Shown here piece after piece: positions 29,233 through 37,396 of a stretch of DNA of 64,000 nt; within the stretch, counting starts at the first letter, position 1; the number at the start of each line of letters is the position of its first letter. Under the pieces are notes generated by a model. The model was given only the letters and a program-made list of their open reading frames with translations, made no database searches and was not told the origin of the DNA. This DNA comes from Gammaproteobacteria bacterium. Lineage in GTDB: Bacteria; Pseudomonadota; Gammaproteobacteria; Steroidobacterales; XN24. The position numbers were made by a program, and so were the translations under genes. The stretch covers positions 2,066,707-2,130,706 of the forward strand of contig CP070833.1 in assembly GCA_020341735.1 (NCBI GenBank), written 5' to 3'.

Positions 29233-29335
29233 CGCAGGCCGCGTTGGAGCCGGGGGAGTCCAACGGACTTCTGTCGCCGTGAAACCGGCCGGACTTTCAG
29301 GGCGAAACTCCCGCCATACAGTCAGGAATTTATCA

Positions 29336-30169
29336 ATGCGTCAGCACCCCGAGACAGGCACTGCGACCGTGGATCCCATCGAAGATGTGCAAGGTAGCGC
29401 AGACCTCCGGCGGATACCGATCAACAAGGTCGGCATCAAGGATATTTATCACCCGGTTCGGGTTCGGGATCGAAACGGCGGCGAGCAGCAGACCGTTGCC
29501 AACTTCAACATGTACGTCAACCTGCCCCATGATTTCAAAGGGACTCATATGTCCCGATTCGTGGAAATTCTCAACAATCACGAGCGCGAGATTACAGTAA
29601 AGTCGTTCCGGGACATGTTGTCCGAACTCACCGACCGCCTCGACGCGGATTCCGGCCACATCGAGATGAGCTTCCCCTATTTCATCTCCAAGAAAGCCCC
29701 GATCAGCAACGTGGAGAGCCTGCTGGACTATCACGCCAGCCTCATCGGCGAACGGAAGGAGGGGCGCAACACCATTTACATCAAGGTCGTTGTCCCGGTG
29801 ACCAGCCTGTGCCCCTGTTCCAAGAAGATCTCGGATTATGGCGCCCACAACCAGCGGTCTCACGTGACGATCAAGGCTCGGATCGACAGCTTCATGTGGA
29901 TCGAAGAACTCATCGACATTGCCGAGAAAGAAGCGTCATGCGAACTGTACGGCATCCTCAAACGCCCGGACGAAAAGTACGTCACCGAGCGCGCTTACGA
30001 GAACCCGAAATTCGTGGAAGACATCGTCCGTGACATCGCCGTGCGCCTCAATGCGGACGGGCGCATTCGTGGCTACGTAGTGGAATCGGAGAATTTCGAG
30101 TCCATCCACAATCACTCTGCCTACGCATTGATTGAGAAGGACAAGGATCTGGACGAAACTGCTGCCTGA
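29336..30169 (+). CDS. folE2: GTP cyclohydrolase FolE2 (type IB)
   Basis: A 277-residue GTP cyclohydrolase I of the zinc-independent IB family, making dihydroneopterin triphosphate for tetrahydrofolate. Family signs are the catalytic-site cysteine in [22 protein letters not shown], the stretch [19 protein letters not shown] near residue 60 and the conserved H-N-H in the last 20 residues. ATG 29336 has AGGA eight bases upstream. In many bacteria folE2 is induced on zinc starvation beside a zinc-dependent FolE; no folE is in this window, so whether this is the only one is open. Confidence 0.93.
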
Positions 30170-30267: not shown

Positions 30268-31536
30268 TCAGTCGGGACTAGCGCTGCCGCCCTGGAGTCG
30301 ACTGATAAGACTGCGCAGGAAGACCCGATTGAAACGCAGCTGGCACGCCGTTGACAGGGTCTCGAGCATAGTCGAGCTGAGCCGTAGTAGCGTAACGGCA
30401 TCGTGGGCATTGATGCTGGCGGCTCGCGTGGCTTCGGTGACGTAGCTGGTCTCGCCGAAGCATTCCCCGGAAGACATGCTGCCGACGACGCGGCCTCCAG
30501 TATTCACGTTAACGCGACCCTCGACGATGATGTAAAACCTGTCGTCGAGATCCCCTTCCTTGACGATCTCCTGACCGGCCTCGAACATGCGCCACTCTCC
30601 GGCGCGCATCAGTTCGCGGATCTCACCATGAGAAAAGTCGTGAAAGAATCGCAATCCGCGCAGCAGGTCGAAATGCTCTTGTTCGTCGAGCTTGCTTTGC
30701 TGTTTGCGCAACTGCTGGTGCACCCGGGTTAGTTCCGCTGCGAACTCTAGCCCTGTGGCGTAACGTTCCTCCGGTTTCTTCCGCAGCGCACGCATCACGA
30801 CCTCTTCCATGTCTTCGGTGACGTCTTCCCGTAACTGGTGGATCGGGACGGGCGTTGAGTAAACGATCTTGTGCAGGAGTTTGGCCAGACTGTTCGCCTT
30901 GAACGGGCGCTGGCCGGTCAGCAACTCGTACATGACTACGCCAAGCGAATAGACGTCGGAAGCAGCGGTGATCTCTTCAGATTTTATTTGTTCGGGCGAC
31001 ATGTAGCTGGGTGATCCGGCAATCCCCTCGATCCTGGAGATTTCGGAATCGGCGCATAAAGCTATACCGAAGTCGATAATTCGGACCTGGTTGTCCAGCG
31101 TCAGAATGATGTTACTCGGCTTGATATCCCTGTGGATCACCTTGCGCGAGTGGGCGTAATGCAGCGCTCTTGCACACGTAAAAACTATCCTCAGAGCGTC
31201 GTCCAGAGGCAGCAGGTTCCCCGCTCGGCAGTAGGTGCTTAGGGTTCGCGCGCCATGCACGTGCTCCATTGCCACGTAGTAACGATCCTGTTCCACGCCG
31301 GCGTCGAAAATCGGAAGGATGTTCGGGTGCTGAAGGCGCCCCACCATCTGCGCCTCGGTGAAGAACATTTTTTTCGCCGTGCGGGCGCGGACATCATCGT
31401 CCCCATCGATCTCCGAGTTGTAGAGTTTTATGGCGACGTCGCGGCCGTAGAAGGGATCATGAGAAAGGTAGACCGTGCCGGTACTGCCCTGGCCGACCTC
31501 TTTGATGATCCGATATTTTCCAATCTTGTCAGGCAA
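30268..31536 (-). CDS. Ser/Thr protein kinase fused to a cyclic-nucleotide-binding domain
   Basis: A 422-residue protein. Residues 8-265 form a complete Hanks-type kinase: G-loop GQGSTG (15-20), Lys37, Glu62, HRDIKPSN (135-142) with Asp137, DFG (155-157) and SPEQ. A short basic helix (about 268-290) leads to a CRP/PKA-type domain (about 299-395) whose phosphate-binding cassette GECFGETSYVTEATRAAS keeps the Glu362 and Arg371 used to hold a cyclic nucleotide. There is no transmembrane segment, so it should be cytosolic. The start is TTG 31536, with GAGGGAG upstream. It follows pgpA by 27 bases and converges on folE2. Its targets and ligand are unknown. Confidence 0.9.
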   Translation of the reverse strand: MPDKIGKYRIIKEVGQGSTGTVYLSHDPFYGRDVAIKLYNSEIDGDDDVRARTAKKMFFTEAQMVGRLQHPNILPIFDAGVEQDRYYVAMEHVHGARTLSTYCRAGNLLPLDDALRIVFTCARALHYAHSRKVIHRDIKPSNIILTLDNQVRIIDFGIALCADSEISRIEGIAGSPSYMSPEQIKSEEITAASDVYSLGVVMYELLTGQRPFKANSLAKLLHKIVYSTPVPIHQLREDVTEDMEEVVMRALRKKPEERYATGLEFAAELTRVHQQLRKQQSKLDEQEHFDLLRGLRFFHDFSHGEIRELMRAGEWRMFEAGQEIVKEGDLDDRFYIIVEGRVNVNTGGRVVGSMSSGECFGETSYVTEATRAASINAHDAVTLLRLSSTMLETLSTACQLRFNRVFLRSLISRLQGGSASPD

Positions 31537-31563: not shown

Positions 31564-32046
31564 TCAGGCCGGAATCAAGTAGCGGACTCCGAGCAACACT
31601 GCGGCAGCGTATACGCCAGCCATGATGTCGTCGAGCATAATACCCAGACCGCCGGACAATCCGTGATCCATGTCCCGTATAGGCCAGGGCTTGAGGATGT
31701 CGAAAAACCGAAACAGGCAGAATCCGGCCAGCATCCACGGCCAACCCGGGGGCGCGGCCAACATCGTCAGTAGATAGCCGGCTATCTCATCCCACACGAT
31801 TCCCGGGTGATCGTGCTCACCTAGTCGCCTGGCGCTCTCCCCACAGATCCAGATTCCAACCAGGGATACGACCAACACGACAAGCGCATTCGGAATAAGG
31901 CCCAGCGGTTGGAGAATGATGCCGATGACGACGCCGACTACGGTACCGAACGTTCCGGGGGCGACTGGAGCCAGGCCCGCACCGAACCCGAAGGCCAGAA
32001 TGTGGACCGGGTCCCGGAAAACGACGCTGGCTGAGACCTTGCTCAA
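31564..32046 (-). CDS. pgpA: Phosphatidylglycerophosphatase A
   Basis: A 160-residue inner-membrane phosphatase that makes phosphatidylglycerol from its phosphate. The family motif FGFGAGLAPVAPGTFGT lies at the start, followed by D-E-x-A-G (VWDEIAGYLL) and the segment FRFFDILKPWPIR. Four hydrophobic helices are present. The start is TTG 32046, which overlaps the thiL stop (TTGA), and gives the normal size. thiL-pgpA is a common gammaproteobacterial pair. Confidence 0.93.
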   Translation of the reverse strand: MSKVSASVVFRDPVHILAFGFGAGLAPVAPGTFGTVVGVVIGIILQPLGLIPNALVVLVVSLVGIWICGESARRLGEHDHPGIVWDEIAGYLLTMLAAPPGWPWMLAGFCLFRFFDILKPWPIRDMDHGLSGGLGIMLDDIMAGVYAAAVLLGVRYLIPA

Positions 32047-33008
32047 GAGCTGGCCTTGGGGAAATGCTGCCAGGTCTGAACAGAGGTGTCCGGGCAAGGC
32101 TTGCCATCCCTGAGCAGAACCACGCCCTCGCCGACCTCGACGTAACCAATCCGGGTAATCCCGCAATCCCAATCAGCGGCCATGTGGTCAAGCGCCGGAA
32201 CCCGGCCGGGTTCTACCGTAAAGCACAATTCGTAGTCATCACCACCGCCGAGCGCGTGCTCCAGCGCGCGTCCCGCGCCCATCAGGTCGACGAGAGCTTC
32301 CGACAGAGGGAGATCCCGGAGTTCCACCACGAGGCGGACACCGCTGGCGGCAGCCAACCTGCCGAGGTCCGTTACAAGCCCGTCTGATATATCGATGGCG
32401 GCGCTTGCCACGCCAGCGATGGCGCGCCCGATATCCGTGCGCGGCTGCGGTCGCAGGAATCGATCCGTCAACCTGTTATCGCCACCGCCCGACTGCAGGA
32501 CGGCCAGTCCAGCAGACGCATCACCCGGGTGTCCTGTGACGAATACGGAGTCACCCGGTTTCGCGTTTCCCCGGGCCAGGAATCGGCCAGGATCGACGAA
32601 TCCCACAACCTGCACACACACGCTGAGTGGACCGCGCACCGTGTCTCCACCGACGATCGCCACGTCGTGACGCCTTGCCAGACGCCGGGCTCCCTCCGCA
32701 AATCCGCTCACCCAGTCTGCCTCTGCCGTGGGCATCGACAGGGACAGCAACGCCCATGCCGGTGTCGCCCCCATCGCGGCGAGGTCGCTGAGGTTGACAG
32801 CCACTGCACGATGCCCGAGGTCGCGGGGCTCGATGTCCTTGGGAAAGTGAACCCCCTCGTTGAGAGTATCGACGGCAAGAACCATGAGTTTGCCTGGCGG
32901 TGGCTGCAGCACCGCGGCGTCATCGCCGATACCGAGGAGGATGTCGGATCGGGGCAGTTCGCCGCAGGCGATAAGCTCAATGACTCCCGCCTCGTCCAGA
33001 CCCGACAA
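32043..33008 (-). CDS. thiL: Thiamine-monophosphate kinase
   Basis: A 321-residue enzyme that phosphorylates thiamine monophosphate to the active diphosphate. Visible motifs are LLGIGDDAAVLQPP, VDTLNEGVHF, VGGDTVRGPLS and the C-terminal GGGDDYELCFTV, each in the order expected of the AIR-synthase fold. The start is TTG 33008 with AGGAG upstream, just after the DUF2889 stop. The order nusB, (DUF2889), thiL, pgpA is the standard cluster with the DUF2889 gene as an insertion. Confidence 0.95.
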   Translation of the reverse strand: MSGLDEAGVIELIACGELPRSDILLGIGDDAAVLQPPPGKLMVLAVDTLNEGVHFPKDIEPRDLGHRAVAVNLSDLAAMGATPAWALLSLSMPTAEADWVSGFAEGARRLARRHDVAIVGGDTVRGPLSVCVQVVGFVDPGRFLARGNAKPGDSVFVTGHPGDASAGLAVLQSGGGDNRLTDRFLRPQPRTDIGRAIAGVASAAIDISDGLVTDLGRLAAASGVRLVVELRDLPLSEALVDLMGAGRALEHALGGGDDYELCFTVEPGRVPALDHMAADWDCGITRIGYVEVGEGVVLLRDGKPCPDTSVQTWQHFPKASS

Positions 33009-33011
33009 GGC

Positions 33012-33557
33012 TCAGCTCCTGTACCAGCGGGGATAAAGCTCCTGGACGATCGGCCCGTCACTCCGCAAAGCGTGGCAGGTATCCAGGTGGGGCGGTCGGC
33101 GATCTGAATTCTCAAGTTGCCGCTCACGGCTCAACACCGGATAGACCGTCTGAACAGCCACGACGGCCATCTCTTGCAGCAGCCGGGTCTGATGAGTGCA
33201 GCCCCTAGCGCCGCCGAGCCGTTCGCGGACAATTTTGCTCCACCCTGGTCTTATCTTGGTACCGATCATTGCGCCGTAGTCGGGCGTGATATCGGGGCAG
33301 TTTGGGAATGGGTGATAATCCGTCGCCGCCTCCAGATCGGTAATCTCCAGAGAATCCGTGAGCGTCATCCTGATCCACATTTCGTGGACCGGCACTCCGG
33401 CCTGGACCTCTCCACGGAAACGATTGTCAAAAGCATAGGTCTTTGTATCGACGAGCCGGCCCTCTATGTCCCAGAGCCCATCGTCCCGCCGATAGCCGCG
33501 ACATTCGATGTCGCGGCTGTGGATGTGCTGCCTCTCTGATGGCTGGCTCAACGGCAT
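33012..33557 (-). CDS. DUF2889 family protein
   Basis: A 181-residue protein of unknown function. The signature is R-D-I-E-C-R-G-Y-R-R-D-D-G-L-W-D-I-E-G, followed by MWIRMTLTDSLEITDLEA and GARGCTHQTRLLQEMAVVAVQ, with conserved Cys and His residues that could bind metal. The ATG at 33557 has a strong AGGAGG site, located inside the end of nusB. It lies between nusB and thiL, three bases before thiL. DUF2889 is usually found near aromatic or CoA-ester metabolism genes elsewhere, so this operon position is not typical to my knowledge. Confidence 0.85.
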   Translation of the reverse strand: MPLSQPSERQHIHSRDIECRGYRRDDGLWDIEGRLVDTKTYAFDNRFRGEVQAGVPVHEMWIRMTLTDSLEITDLEAATDYHPFPNCPDITPDYGAMIGTKIRPGWSKIVRERLGGARGCTHQTRLLQEMAVVAVQTVYPVLSRERQLENSDRRPPHLDTCHALRSDGPIVQELYPRWYRS

Positions 33558-33571
33558 GAGGCCTCCTGGCG

Positions 33572-34024
33572 TCAACTCTGCACTGACGTTTCGGGCTGCC
33601 GGTATTTGCGCGCAGCCCGATCAAGCAGGGCGTTGACAAACTTGTGACCATCCTCTGCCCCGTAGGCCCTGGACAGCTCGACTGCCTCGTTGATTACAAC
33701 CCGGAATGGCACATCAGTCCGATGCTTCAATTCGTACATGGCCATCAGGAGGATGCCGTGCTCCACAGGGTCAAGCTGGTCTGTCGATCGGTCTGATATC
33801 TCGCCGATGTCTCGATCCAGAGCCTCGCGGTCTTCGATGACTTCCCGGACGAGTTCCCGAAACAGTTCATGGTCTGCCCGCTGATGATCTTCCTCAGCGG
33901 CAAACTGCAGGATGATGTCCTTGCTACCCTGACCCGTGAGTTGCCACTGATATAGAGCCTGCATGGCCCGCCGCCGGGCAAGAGTGCGGGCGCCAGCCGA
34001 GCCACCGCTGCGGCGCCTGGCCAT
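33572..34024 (-). CDS. nusB: Transcription antitermination factor NusB
   Basis: A 150-residue all-helical protein that binds boxA RNA with S10 (NusE) in rRNA antitermination. It starts with a basic tail (ARRRSGGSAGARTLARRRA), then M-Q-A-L-Y-Q-W-Q-L, and carries the family segments LDPVEHGILLMAMYEL, VPFRVVINEAVELSRAYG and KFVNALLDRAARK. It is three bases downstream of ribH, which is the classic ribH-nusB arrangement. Confidence 0.96.
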   Translation of the reverse strand: MARRRSGGSAGARTLARRRAMQALYQWQLTGQGSKDIILQFAAEEDHQRADHELFRELVREVIEDREALDRDIGEISDRSTDQLDPVEHGILLMAMYELKHRTDVPFRVVINEAVELSRAYGAEDGHKFVNALLDRAARKYRQPETSVQS

Positions 34025-34027
34025 CCG

Positions 34028-34504
34028 TCAACCCTCCAGTTTACGCAGCAGGTTGACCATCTCGATTGCGCTGGCGGCGGCCTCGGCACCCTTGTTGCCG
34101 GCCTTCGTGCCGGCGCGTTCAATGGCCTGCTCGATCGTATCCGTGGTCAGGACGCCGAAGGCCACAGGAACATCGTGCGCATGAGACGCCTGAGCGACAC
34201 CCTTCGCGCACTCTCCTGCGACATATTCGAAGTGGGGGGTAGCCCCGCGAATTACCGCGCCCAGCGCGATGACTGCGTCATAACGCCTCGAGGCAGCCAT
34301 CTTCTTTACGGCCAGCGGCATCTCCCACGCGCCGGGCACCCTGGCGAGGGTGATGTCTCTCTCCCTGACACCATGTCGAATCAGCGCGTTCACGGCACCG
34401 CGAACCAGCGAATCCACGACGAATTCGTTGAAACGGGCGGCGACGATCCCGACTCGAAGATCTCTCGCAATGGCCGCTCCCTCGACTGTCTTGATTTCGT
34501 CCAC
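34028..34504 (-). CDS. ribH: 6,7-dimethyl-8-ribityllumazine synthase
   Basis: A 158-residue subunit that condenses dihydroxybutanone phosphate with the ribityl-pyrimidine. Substrate-binding segments are [33 protein letters not shown] and [16 protein letters not shown] with the catalytic His, then [17 protein letters not shown]. The start is GTG 34504 with AGGGAG upstream, nine bases after the ribBX stop. Confidence 0.97.
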
Positions 34505-34513
34505 GGTGTCTCC

Positions 34514-35644
34514 CTAATCCACGTACTCGACAACTTCGAGGCCAAATCCGGAGATTGCCGACATCTGCTTGGGTGCACTGAGCACCCGCATCCTGTGCAC
34601 GCCGAGATTTCGCAGAATCTGGGCGCCGATGCCGTGGGTCCGCAGCACGGTGGACTCCCGACCATCCCTCAGCCGGAATCCGGTACGACCATGGAGCCGT
34701 TCGACGGCGTCCATCAGATCTCGCGGCGTCTCGCTGCCACGCAGAATGACCACCACGCCACAACCGTCTTCGGCGATGCGTCGCAACGCATCACGCAGTT
34801 GCCATCCACCGCCATCCGAGTGGATACCGACGACGTCGCGAAGTGTGTCCATCAACTGCACACGGACCAGCGGCAATTGCTGCCCAATCTCCCCACGGAT
34901 CAGTGCCAGATGCACATCCTGATGGACATGATCCTCGAACACGGCAAGTCGGAATTGCCCAAATTCAGTTTCCACGACATCGTCCGAAATGCGTTCGACC
35001 GACTCTTCCTTCTGCAGCCGGTAACGGATCAGGTCGGCTATGGTGCCGATTTTCAGCTGGTGCTGGCGAGCGAACTCAACGAGATCGGGTCGACGCGCCA
35101 TGCTGCCGTCCTCGTTCAGGATCTCGACGATAACCGCGGCGGGCTCGAGCCCGGCCAATCGAGTGAGATCACAACCGGCCTCCGTATGTCCCGCTCGAGT
35201 CAGAACGCCGCCCGGTTGGGCCATCAGCGGAAATATGTGCCCCGGCTGACGCAGATCTTCCGGACTGGCATCCATCGCTACGGCGGTCTTGATAGTGTGG
35301 GCTCGATCGTGTGCGGATATACCGGTGGTAACACCCTCGGCCGCTTCAATAGATACCGTGAAATTGGTGATTCTGTCGTCGTCGGTATTTGTCACCATCA
35401 ATGGCAGCCGCAACTGTTTGCAGCGTTGACGGTTCAGCGTCAGACAGATCAACCCACGTCCGAAGCGGGCCATGAAATTGATGTCTTCCGCCGTGGCCAT
35501 GGTTGCAGCCATGACGAGGTCTCCCTCGTTCTCCCGGTCCTCGTCGTCCATCATGACAACCATCCGCCCGGAGCGGATGTCGTCGAGAATCTCGTCGATC
35601 GTGTTGTAGTGGACCTCGGTCCGCAGGTCAGTGACTTTCTGCAA
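34514..35644 (-). CDS. ribBX: DHBP synthase fused to an inactive GTP cyclohydrolase II-like domain (RibBX)
   Basis: A 376-residue protein. Residues 1-205 are 3,4-dihydroxy-2-butanone-4-phosphate synthase, with the Mg-binding [11 protein letters not shown] and the G-H-T-E-A-G-C-D-L catalytic region. The C-terminal 165 residues align with GTP cyclohydrolase II, but the three zinc cysteines of E. coli RibA fall in the stretch [20 protein letters not shown] and all are missing, so this half should not act on GTP. Such RibBX forms are known in proteobacteria and need a separate RibA, which is not in the window. TTG 35644 with GGAG upstream is the best start and lies 17 bases inside ribC. Confidence 0.92.
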
Positions 35645-36278
35645 AACCAGTCTCCTTCAGTTTCTCGAGGCTTAGACCGCGGGACGAATCGTCGCCCAGC
35701 AGCCGCTCGAGATATCGGGCCACGATATCGACCTCGACGTTGACGGGAACTCCTTCCATCCACTCGTCAAGGGTCGTGACCTCCAGGGTGTGCGGCACGA
35801 TATTGACCCCGAACCTGTCTCCCGACACATCATTCACTGTAAGGCTCACGCCGTCCAGGCAAACAGAGCCCTTGCGGGCCACATAACGCGACAATTCGCC
35901 AGGTACGCGGATCCCGAAACGGATAGAACGGGCGTCGTCCCGCCGATCCAGGACTTCTCCGATGCCATCGACATGGCCGGTCACCAGGTGTCCGCCCAAA
36001 GGCGTCGCCAAGGTCAGCGCCTTCTCGAGATTGACTCGCCCGCCAGGCTTGTATCGCCCAAGGGTTGTATGATCCAGCGTCTCGCGAGAGACATCGGCGC
36101 TGAAGCCGTTCTCATCCAACTCGATCGCGGTCAGACAGACACCGCCCACCGAGATGCTGTCTCCGACAGTGCCACAAGCGGCGCCCAGCTCGGGACAGCG
36201 CACAGCGAGGCGAACGTCGCCGCCGCGTGGCGTCAGCGCTTCTATGGTCCCGGTTGTCTGCACGATTCCTGTAAACAT
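35628..36278 (-). CDS. ribC: Riboflavin synthase alpha subunit
   Basis: A 216-residue enzyme that dismutates two lumazines into riboflavin. Its two similar lumazine-binding halves are visible: MFTGIVQTTGTIEALTP with D-S-I-S-V-G-G-V-C-L-T at the front, and G-H-V-D-G-I-G-E followed by KGSVCLDGVSLTVNDV in the second. The ATG at 36278 overlaps the ribD stop; a TTG one codon upstream is less likely. It is called ribE in some species. The 3' end overlaps ribBX by 17 bases. Confidence 0.96.
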   Translation of the reverse strand: MFTGIVQTTGTIEALTPRGGDVRLAVRCPELGAACGTVGDSISVGGVCLTAIELDENGFSADVSRETLDHTTLGRYKPGGRVNLEKALTLATPLGGHLVTGHVDGIGEVLDRRDDARSIRFGIRVPGELSRYVARKGSVCLDGVSLTVNDVSGDRFGVNIVPHTLEVTTLDEWMEGVPVNVEVDIVARYLERLLGDDSSRGLSLEKLKETGFAESH

Positions 36279-37396
36279 CAATCAGCCCTTGCGCCTTTCC
36301 GGGGAAGAGCCCGCACACGCAGGTCGGGTCCCACGGATCGGACCTCGACAAACTCCAATTGTACCTTGTCCGCCATCTTTTCCAGACCCGGCAGATCGAA
36401 CATCCCTCTGGCTGCAGAGCCCAACAGGCTTGGCGCCAGATAAAACACAAACTGGTCGACCAGGCCCTCGCGAACAAACGAGCCCGCCAGGCAGGGTCCG
36501 GCCTCAACCAGAACGTCGTTACACTCACGCTCGCCCAGCTCGAAAAGAAGCCTTTCGAGATCAACCCTTCTGTCGCTACCCGGAAAGCTGAGGATCCCTG
36601 CACCGGCAGCCATCAGTGCATCTGCTGACGGGCTTGCCCCGTCTCCGGCGCATACGATCAAAGTGTTCCCGGGCAGGCTGAGCACGCGCGCCGAGGGCGG
36701 CGTCCTCAATCGGCTGTCGATGAGCACCCGGAGCGGCTGTCTGCCCCCGGTTTCATATTTTTCAGATCGCACGTTAAGGGACGGGTCATCCGCGAGGACC
36801 GTGCCTGCCCCTGTCAGTACAGCGGAGCTCTCGGCACGAAGCCGCTGGACATCTTCGCGAGCGTCGATCGAAGTGACCCACTGGCTTTCTCCGCTCGCCA
36901 TTGCGGTGCGACCGTCCAGACTGGCGCCCAGCTTGATCGTGACCCGCGGACGGCCCCGGGTCATGCGGCTGACGAACCCCGCATTCAGCGTCGTAGCCTC
37001 GTCGGCAAGCAGACCGGTCTCGACCTGGACACCGGCCTTCTCGAGGATGTGCTTCCCATTGCCGCCGACCCTCGGGTTCGGGTCTTGCATTGCTATCACG
37101 ACGCGAGACACGCCTGCCTGCACCAGCACCGGGGCACAGGGCCCGGTGCGGCCTGTATGACTGCAGGGCTCCAGCGTCACGTAGACAGTGCTTCCGGACG
37201 CTTGCGCGGCGGCGCATTGCAAAGCCTCGATCTCCGCATGAGCATCGCCGGCACGTCGATGCCAGCCCTCGCCTACAACCTGTCCTTCCCGGACGATGAC
37301 ACAGCCGACGCGTGGATTGGGATCTGCCGAGTATTTGCCGCGCTCCGCCAGGGCGAGTGCTCTCGCCATATGACGGTGATCAACCGGATCGAACAT
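36278..37396 (-). CDS. ribD: Bifunctional pyrimidine deaminase/reductase
   Basis: A 372-residue fusion for two early riboflavin steps. The N-terminal deaminase has the zinc motif H-A-E (GDAHAEIEAL) and PCSHTGRTGPC; the C-terminal NADPH-dependent reductase carries KLGASLDGRTA, GAGTVLADDPSLNVR and the VEAGPCLAGSF segment. It lies six bases after nrdR, the usual nrdR-ribD order. No FMN riboswitch could fit in that gap, and I see none upstream of nrdR. Confidence 0.96.
   Translation of the reverse strand: MFDPVDHRHMARALALAERGKYSADPNPRVGCVIVREGQVVGEGWHRRAGDAHAEIEALQCAAAQASGSTVYVTLEPCSHTGRTGPCAPVLVQAGVSRVVIAMQDPNPRVGGNGKHILEKAGVQVETGLLADEATTLNAGFVSRMTRGRPRVTIKLGASLDGRTAMASGESQWVTSIDAREDVQRLRAESSAVLTGAGTVLADDPSLNVRSEKYETGGRQPLRVLIDSRLRTPPSARVLSLPGNTLIVCAGDGASPSADALMAAGAGILSFPGSDRRVDLERLLFELGERECNDVLVEAGPCLAGSFVREGLVDQFVFYLAPSLLGSAARGMFDLPGLEKMADKVQLEFVEVRSVGPDLRVRALPRKGARAD

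Follow-up and report, generated by a model that had tools for sequence, protein, structure and literature searches.

A gammaproteobacterial Ser/Thr kinase with a C-terminal cyclic-nucleotide-binding domain, probably switched by cAMP, at the end of a conserved rib-nusB-thiL gene run

The window, a stretch of 64,000 nucleotides from a gammaproteobacterial genome, encodes a protein that is probably a soluble, single-chain, cyclic-nucleotide-dependent protein kinase switched by cAMP, with ligand, switch and targets as its predicted elements. The cAMP would be made by the class III cyclases of the cell, in kinase-bearing relatives most often by an adenylate-type cyclase with an FHA domain, and would bind to the C-terminal cyclic-nucleotide-binding (CNB) domain via Glu362 and Arg371. 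The C-terminal helix of this domain and the long helix that joins it to the kinase would then move and change the activity of the PknB-type kinase, which in turn would phosphorylate Ser/Thr targets. This reading is preferred because of the domains present, the catalytic and ligand residues, the structures matched by the CNB model, the co-occurrence of the kinase with cyclases, and the cyclase genes that lie beside related kinases in one family. The initial annotation of this gene is confirmed as an observation, with small corrections, and its interpretation is partly supported.

The gene for the kinase-CNB protein and its parts are arranged as follows:

30268..31536, minus strand: open reading frame of the kinase-CNB protein, 422 aa, TTG start
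30757..31515, minus strand: PknB-like Ser/Thr kinase domain, residues 8-260, with Lys37, Glu61, the HRD Asp137 and the DFG Asp155
30658..30753, minus strand: long helix joining the kinase to the CNB domain, residues 262-293, the least conserved part
30289..30654, minus strand: CNB domain, residues 295-416, whose C-terminal helix is strongly conserved
30409..30468, minus strand: phosphate-binding cassette, residues 357-376, holding Glu362 and Arg371
30544..30546, minus strand: codon of Asp331, at the PKA Gly169 position in the beta2-beta3 loop

Read on the plus strand, the same interval contains many stops. The minus-strand frame is not a chance one, since 28 loci align with it over about the full length at 60-76 % identity (L001-L028, the close group among the best 80 of 577 matching loci taken from a scan of species genomes) and the AlphaFold2 model of the full protein reaches a mean pLDDT of 88. 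The one-chain soluble architecture that had been proposed stands, with both Pfam domains above their cut-offs (Pkinase, 172 bits over residues 8-260, cut-off 31.7; cNMP_binding, 55 bits over residues 316-393, cut-off 27.5) and with PknB on the one side and PKG and the PKA regulatory subunits on the other as solved relatives. In the alignment, Lys37, Asp137 and Asp155 keep the numbers first given to them, and the alpha-C glutamate, earlier taken to be Glu62, is Glu61. These four residues (VAIK Lys, alpha-C Glu, HRD Asp, DFG Asp) are kept in 80/80 aligned rows that have a residue there. By fold and catalytic residues, the protein is thus a Hanks-type Ser/Thr kinase with predicted phosphotransfer activity. 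It is also a member of the CNB superfamily, as the domain model scores above its cut-off and the CNB fold is present.

The AlphaFold2 model contains both folds with the long helix 262-293 between them, and the relative placement of the two domains is not to be trusted at its pTM of 0.66. Its kinase part superimposes on PknB with a Z of 34 over 258 residues at 1.8 A, and mycobacterial PknB is also the closest solved sequence to this part. As VIA-align of the whole model returns kinases only, it is silent on the CNB part, and the CNB domain was folded alone (pLDDT 87). This model matches many CNB structures bound to cAMP, cGMP or cUMP with Z values of 15-18. The closest solved sequences to the CNB part are those of the Plasmodium cGMP-dependent kinase (PKG), which is the best match, and of the PKA regulatory subunits.

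The search for this architecture and its neighbours across Gammaproteobacteria, which had been suggested as a check, led to an orthologue group at a conserved locus. In the order of the window's genome, 320/396 genomes match the protein at E 1e-80, a figure that includes some kinase-only genomes; 12 of the 320 have a best E weaker than 1e-100, the kinase-only range, which leaves about 308 by hand count. In the class sample, 125/369 genomes match at 1e-80, many through the kinase part only, and outside the order at least 67/364 match across the full length (hand count). E. coli genomes gave no near DNA match to the gene. Second matches at E 1e-80, which many genomes of the order show, were considered as paralogues and dropped; that of G015 covers only the kinase part (5-276) in an 831-residue frame. 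Twenty out-of-order loci were fetched, and in five genomes (G574, G680, G512, G542 and G434) the kinase is in the same rib-thiL-pgpA locus, with six copies from five families. The other fetched loci hold paralogues elsewhere, often paired beside a gene that by eye is glucose-6-phosphate isomerase-like. At L132, L135, L151 and others, such kinase-CNB pairs flank a CBS-domain-like protein together with the isomerase-like gene, again by eye.

A single branch with an SH-aLRT of 97 separates the 35 locus-linked kinases from the rest of a 104-row tree, from which five truncated rows were left out (shuffled mean, 29 changes); there are long-branch warnings among the six out-of-order copies. The reading that fits is a single inherited kinase-CNB locus that would be old in the class. 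The protein belongs to a gammaproteobacterial orthologue group.

The genes around the kinase in the window, as identified by profile, include the following:

31564..32172, minus strand: pgpA, the upstream neighbour, with a 27-base gap to the kinase gene
32043..33008, minus strand: thiL
33572..34024, minus strand: nusB
34028..37396, minus strand: ribH, ribBA-type gene, riboflavin synthase and ribD
29279..30169, plus strand: folE2, convergent, downstream of the kinase

Profiles confirmed glyA, nrdR and dxs in the window as well as these genes, and the 27 bases reported between the pgpA stop (31564) and the kinase gene are correct. Between thiL and nusB lies an ORF of 187 aa (33012-33575, minus strand) that has no NCBIfam match at 1e-10; L001 has a gap of similar size.

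The kinase had been placed at the end of a rib-thi-pgp run. Its position at the end of the rib-nusB-thiL run holds in 28/28 close relatives and in the five out-of-order families, but the pgpA part of the claim does not, as pgpA is absent from the junction in 15/28. In these cases 115-241 bases separate the thiL stop from the aligned kinase start, which is too short for pgpA. Upstream of the kinase, 27/28 have thiL, and L003, where thiL was not found, has nusB as the direct neighbour; pgpA stands between thiL and the kinase in 13/28. What is conserved is thus the attachment to the end of the rib-nusB-thiL run and not to pgpA as such. In 30 further loci from the scan of the order, pgpA is upstream in 29 and one stops at a contig edge; at least three of these 30 coincide with the contigs of L007, L018 and L019. 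Downstream, a convergent folE2 is found in 16/28 close relatives, and in two more the contig stops too soon to judge. A dedicated promoter, which had been named as evidence against the link to pgpA, did not appear: promoter and terminator scans of the kinase region gave no more sites than shuffled sequences, and one weak promoter match starts at the kinase start codon.

For the proposed expression together with cofactor and lipid genes, the shared position is kept, but shared position is not shared function. It is likely that the kinase sits at this locus by vertical descent only and has no functional tie to the riboflavin, thiamine and lipid genes, as would fit the missing pgpA and the related kinases found in quite different places, for instance beside pgi. 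On the other hand, the retention of the same place over several families suggests that co-transcription is tolerated or useful. This question concerns the neighbourhood and is compatible with a cAMP-switched kinase.

Clustering of the genes that neighbour the kinase in 52 further relatives (L029-L080) brought out no common functional partner; by eye these neighbours include valine-tRNA ligase-like, DnaK/DnaJ, ferrochelatase-like and M48 protease-like genes. As for a partner phosphatase, the window's genome has three PP2C genes, two of which adjoin other kinases and none of which is at the kinase-CNB locus. The same genome has five kinase domains in all. At L162:1975-4359, a kinase, a PP2C-type phosphatase and an FHA protein are encoded by three adjacent same-strand genes, and at L164:517-1764 a kinase has an N-terminus that by eye resembles a response-regulator receiver and is possibly a receiver-kinase fusion.

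The locus also bears on a role in anti-phage defence of the PD-T4-6 or MAD6 kind. The PADLOC models for PD-T4-6 match the kinase domain with up to 274 bits, but the matches end at about residue 286 and cover kinase domains generally, and the gene, instead of being patchy as defence genes are, occupies a conserved housekeeping locus and occurs in most of an order. The PADLOC-based role was rejected as domain-level similarity, and a defence kinase is very unlikely.

Glu362 and Arg371, which had been named as the residues holding the cyclic phosphate, are present at those numbers, and in the close copies this FGE...R cassette keeps both of them in 29/29. In the wider alignment, Glu362 is present in 81/81 rows and Arg371 in 63/81, the rest having Gln (11), His (6) or Asn (1), all outside the close group. 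Of the 35 locus-linked copies, 34 have Arg in the aligned column, and L142 has an Arg one residue earlier. A consistent loss of the cassette in homologues had been put forward as evidence against the proposed cyclic-nucleotide-gated kinase; the orthologues show no such loss, and the 18/81 rows without the Arg are all outside the orthologue group.

These counts can be set against the idea that the CNB domain serves structure or dimerisation, leaving the kinase free of ligand control. Conservation is 0.85 in the cassette compared to 0.78 in the whole CNB domain and is higher still in the C-terminal helix, which is the most conserved 20-residue stretch of the domain; this and the Arg lost in some distant relatives would suit such a module. 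However, a Glu362 common to all rows and an Arg371 common to all close copies would not, and neither would the co-occurrence of the kinase with cyclases described below, which makes a purely structural domain improbable. As a separate observation, L038, L056, L059, L061, L062, L064, L066-L070, L072, L075 and L077-L080 keep Glu362 and carry Gln or His at Arg371. This Arg-losing set (within L038-L080) comes from Rhodocyclales-type genomes and one labelled Moraxellaceae and may be a natural ligand-changed or ligand-free branch; betaproteobacterial relatives are among those in which Arg371 is lost.

In place of the small Gly169 of PKA, the canonical residue at this position, the protein has Asp331, which counts against the cAMP reading. 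The column holds Asp in 53/81 rows and Gly in 21, and Asp occurs together with the kept Arg in 36/81; among 28 further copies, 23 have the Asp and 26 the Arg. In cAMP-type domains, the phosphate-binding Arg co-varies with the Gly of the beta2-beta3 loop, and two bacterial families with the Arg and without the Gly are named in the same work (Kannan 2007, PMC2246266). When the pocket is empty, Asp331 could form a pair with Arg371. In the nucleoside-binding PKA of trypanosomes, the A202 position is occupied by Glu and the R209 position by a residue other than Arg (PMC10959531). The kinase-CNB protein has Ser364 and Arg371 at these positions, a pattern other than the nucleoside-binding one of trypanosomatids, and therefore a cyclic-phosphate-type ligand is expected.

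Nevertheless, the CNB domain could be a real sensor of a ligand other than cAMP, for which Asp331 would reshape the pocket; this could be cGMP, cUMP/cCMP or some further small molecule. Asp331 is found in 34/35 locus-linked copies, the top structural match of the CNB model is a cUMP-bound CNB domain (Z 18.5), and the residue following Arg371 varies between T, Q, N, A, S and M, all of which would be in keeping with another ligand. However, fold rank tells little about the ligand, the common cyclase has adenylate-type residues, and cAMP-binding CRP-type domains are likewise without the Gly. One of the nine CNB matches in the window's genome is such a CRP-like protein, with Pro at the Gly169 position and an intact cassette, and its presence is counted for the preferred reading. 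Another ligand is thus conceivable but rather unlikely, and the evidence points to cAMP as the putative ligand.

The source of cAMP can be sought among the cyclases, for which the searches covered class I and class III. In the window's genome, seven class III cyclase domains score above the cut-off and one below it; class I cyclase was sought there and none was found. For the order, 20 kinase-bearing genomes, chosen by hand for their completeness, were compared with 20 listed without it (of 76 that lack it), and class III cyclase is present in 20/20 of the former vs 1/20 of the latter (Fisher p 1.5e-10). The counts are 20/20 vs 1/11 in genomes of 2 Mb or more and 8/9 vs 0/4 within family f6. 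The kinase-less genomes are confined to families f12 (7), f13 (8, small genomes), f6 (4) and f11 (1), which implies few independent losses, perhaps three to five. In the class, taking one genome per family, 28/30 genomes with the kinase have a cyclase of class I or III vs 22/39 without (p 0.0005), or 23/24 vs 16/23 in genomes of at least 2 Mb and 90 % completeness (p 0.02); the genomes compared are hand-picked and related, and a general loss of signalling could mimic co-loss.

Four exceptions are counted against cAMP. G512 and G542 have the kinase and neither class I nor class III cyclase, both kinases being locus-linked but diverged; G071, a genome that is 88 % complete, carries the kinase but gave no class III match; and G073 has cyclases without the kinase. 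The positions of the genes give a divided picture as well. In family f125, a class III cyclase gene follows a kinase-CNB paralogue in the same orientation, 29 bases downstream in L208 and 192 bases downstream in L206, and in L207 the two genes are divergent and about 690 bases apart. Four loci had been selected for a cyclase on the same contig, or for kinship with a genome of this kind, and in these three of the four a cyclase is near the kinase. None of the 100 kinase loci (of 104) that were not chosen for cyclases has one close by, which again counts against the cAMP reading.

The cyclase that most often accompanies the kinase is a cyclase-FHA protein. That of the window's genome (L097:1096-1998, minus strand; region G000:C1:2357741-2358643) has 300 aa, with a class III cyclase domain (Pfam, 70 bits) and a C-terminal FHA domain (45 bits). 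Homologues aligning across both parts are found in 19/20 kinase-bearing genomes of the order as well as in the window's genome; in the one genome left, G049, the five cyclase frames differ from it in length. Among the 20 kinase-less genomes of the order, no cyclase-FHA protein was found: 19 are without class III cyclase, and of the two cyclases of G073 one (L195) has no similarity to cyclase-FHA and the other, an 819-residue frame, was outside the comparison. Outside the order, cyclase-FHA is present in 12/14 fetched loci from genomes with the kinase, chosen mostly for frame length, and one of the remaining two (L205) has an N-terminus that is FHA-like by eye. It is also present in 4/5 fetched class genomes without the kinase, a further point against cAMP as the switch. 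Lys and Asp, which we take to be the adenine-specifying cyclase residues, are present in the window genome's cyclase-FHA and in most homologues read, and they point to cAMP as the probable messenger.

FHA domains want phospho-Thr. Binding of the FHA domain to the activation loop of the kinase itself is unlikely, as residues 155-182 hold Ser and no Thr. As a speculative extension, the two proteins might form an old gammaproteobacterial PKA-like circuit in which cAMP from cyclase-FHA would switch the kinase on and phospho-threonine, made by this or another kinase, would recruit the cyclase via its FHA domain in a local feedback. The pair would then be inherited and lost together in the order, and cAMP would feed into protein phosphorylation across the class.

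A literature search, mostly of papers outside subscription, found no characterised member of the kinase-CNB family and no study of the family itself, of its locus or of a tie to cyclases. The passages of PMC1262709, PMC2877116 and PMC6213207 reached by term searches do not mention a CNB domain on bacterial kinases. Bacterial CNB-kinase fusions are listed as 'Other_bacterial' by Kannan 2007 (PMC2246266), where CNB is joined to kinase as here; the passages of that paper on these fusions give no orthologue group, locus, cyclase link or function. The architecture is therefore already in print in passing, and what appears new, within the papers searched, is the orthologue group, the conserved locus and the cyclase co-occurrence. 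A conserved kinase of this kind, with its pocket intact, present in most of an order and missing where cyclases are missing, would make direct cAMP control of bacterial protein phosphorylation testable with few assays. Comparisons within the family are at hand, between Asp and Gly at the allosteric position and between Arg-keeping and Arg-losing branches.

In well-studied bacteria, cAMP is chiefly known via CRP-type transcription factors. The mycobacterial acetyltransferase Pat, which is cAMP-regulated, is like the kinase-CNB protein a bacterial modifying enzyme with a fused CNB domain, and its NCBIfam model matches the CNB part weakly; the difference is in the enzyme, an acetyltransferase vs a kinase. 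The Hanks kinases PknB and StkP resemble the kinase domain (34-36 % identical, Z 34), but the kinase-CNB protein has neither a transmembrane nor a PASTA part, and the NCBIfam PASTA-kinase model gives 281 of the 450 bits required, through the kinase part only; the protein is not a PASTA kinase. With PKG, of which the Plasmodium protein is the best solved CNB sequence match, the kinase-CNB protein shares the union of CNB and Ser/Thr kinase in one chain. PKG carries N-terminal CNBs, in contrast to the single C-terminal CNB here, and the kinase is of the PknB type rather than AGC. The protein is therefore not a member of the PKG family but most likely works as a one-chain analogue of PKG with the domains in reversed order.
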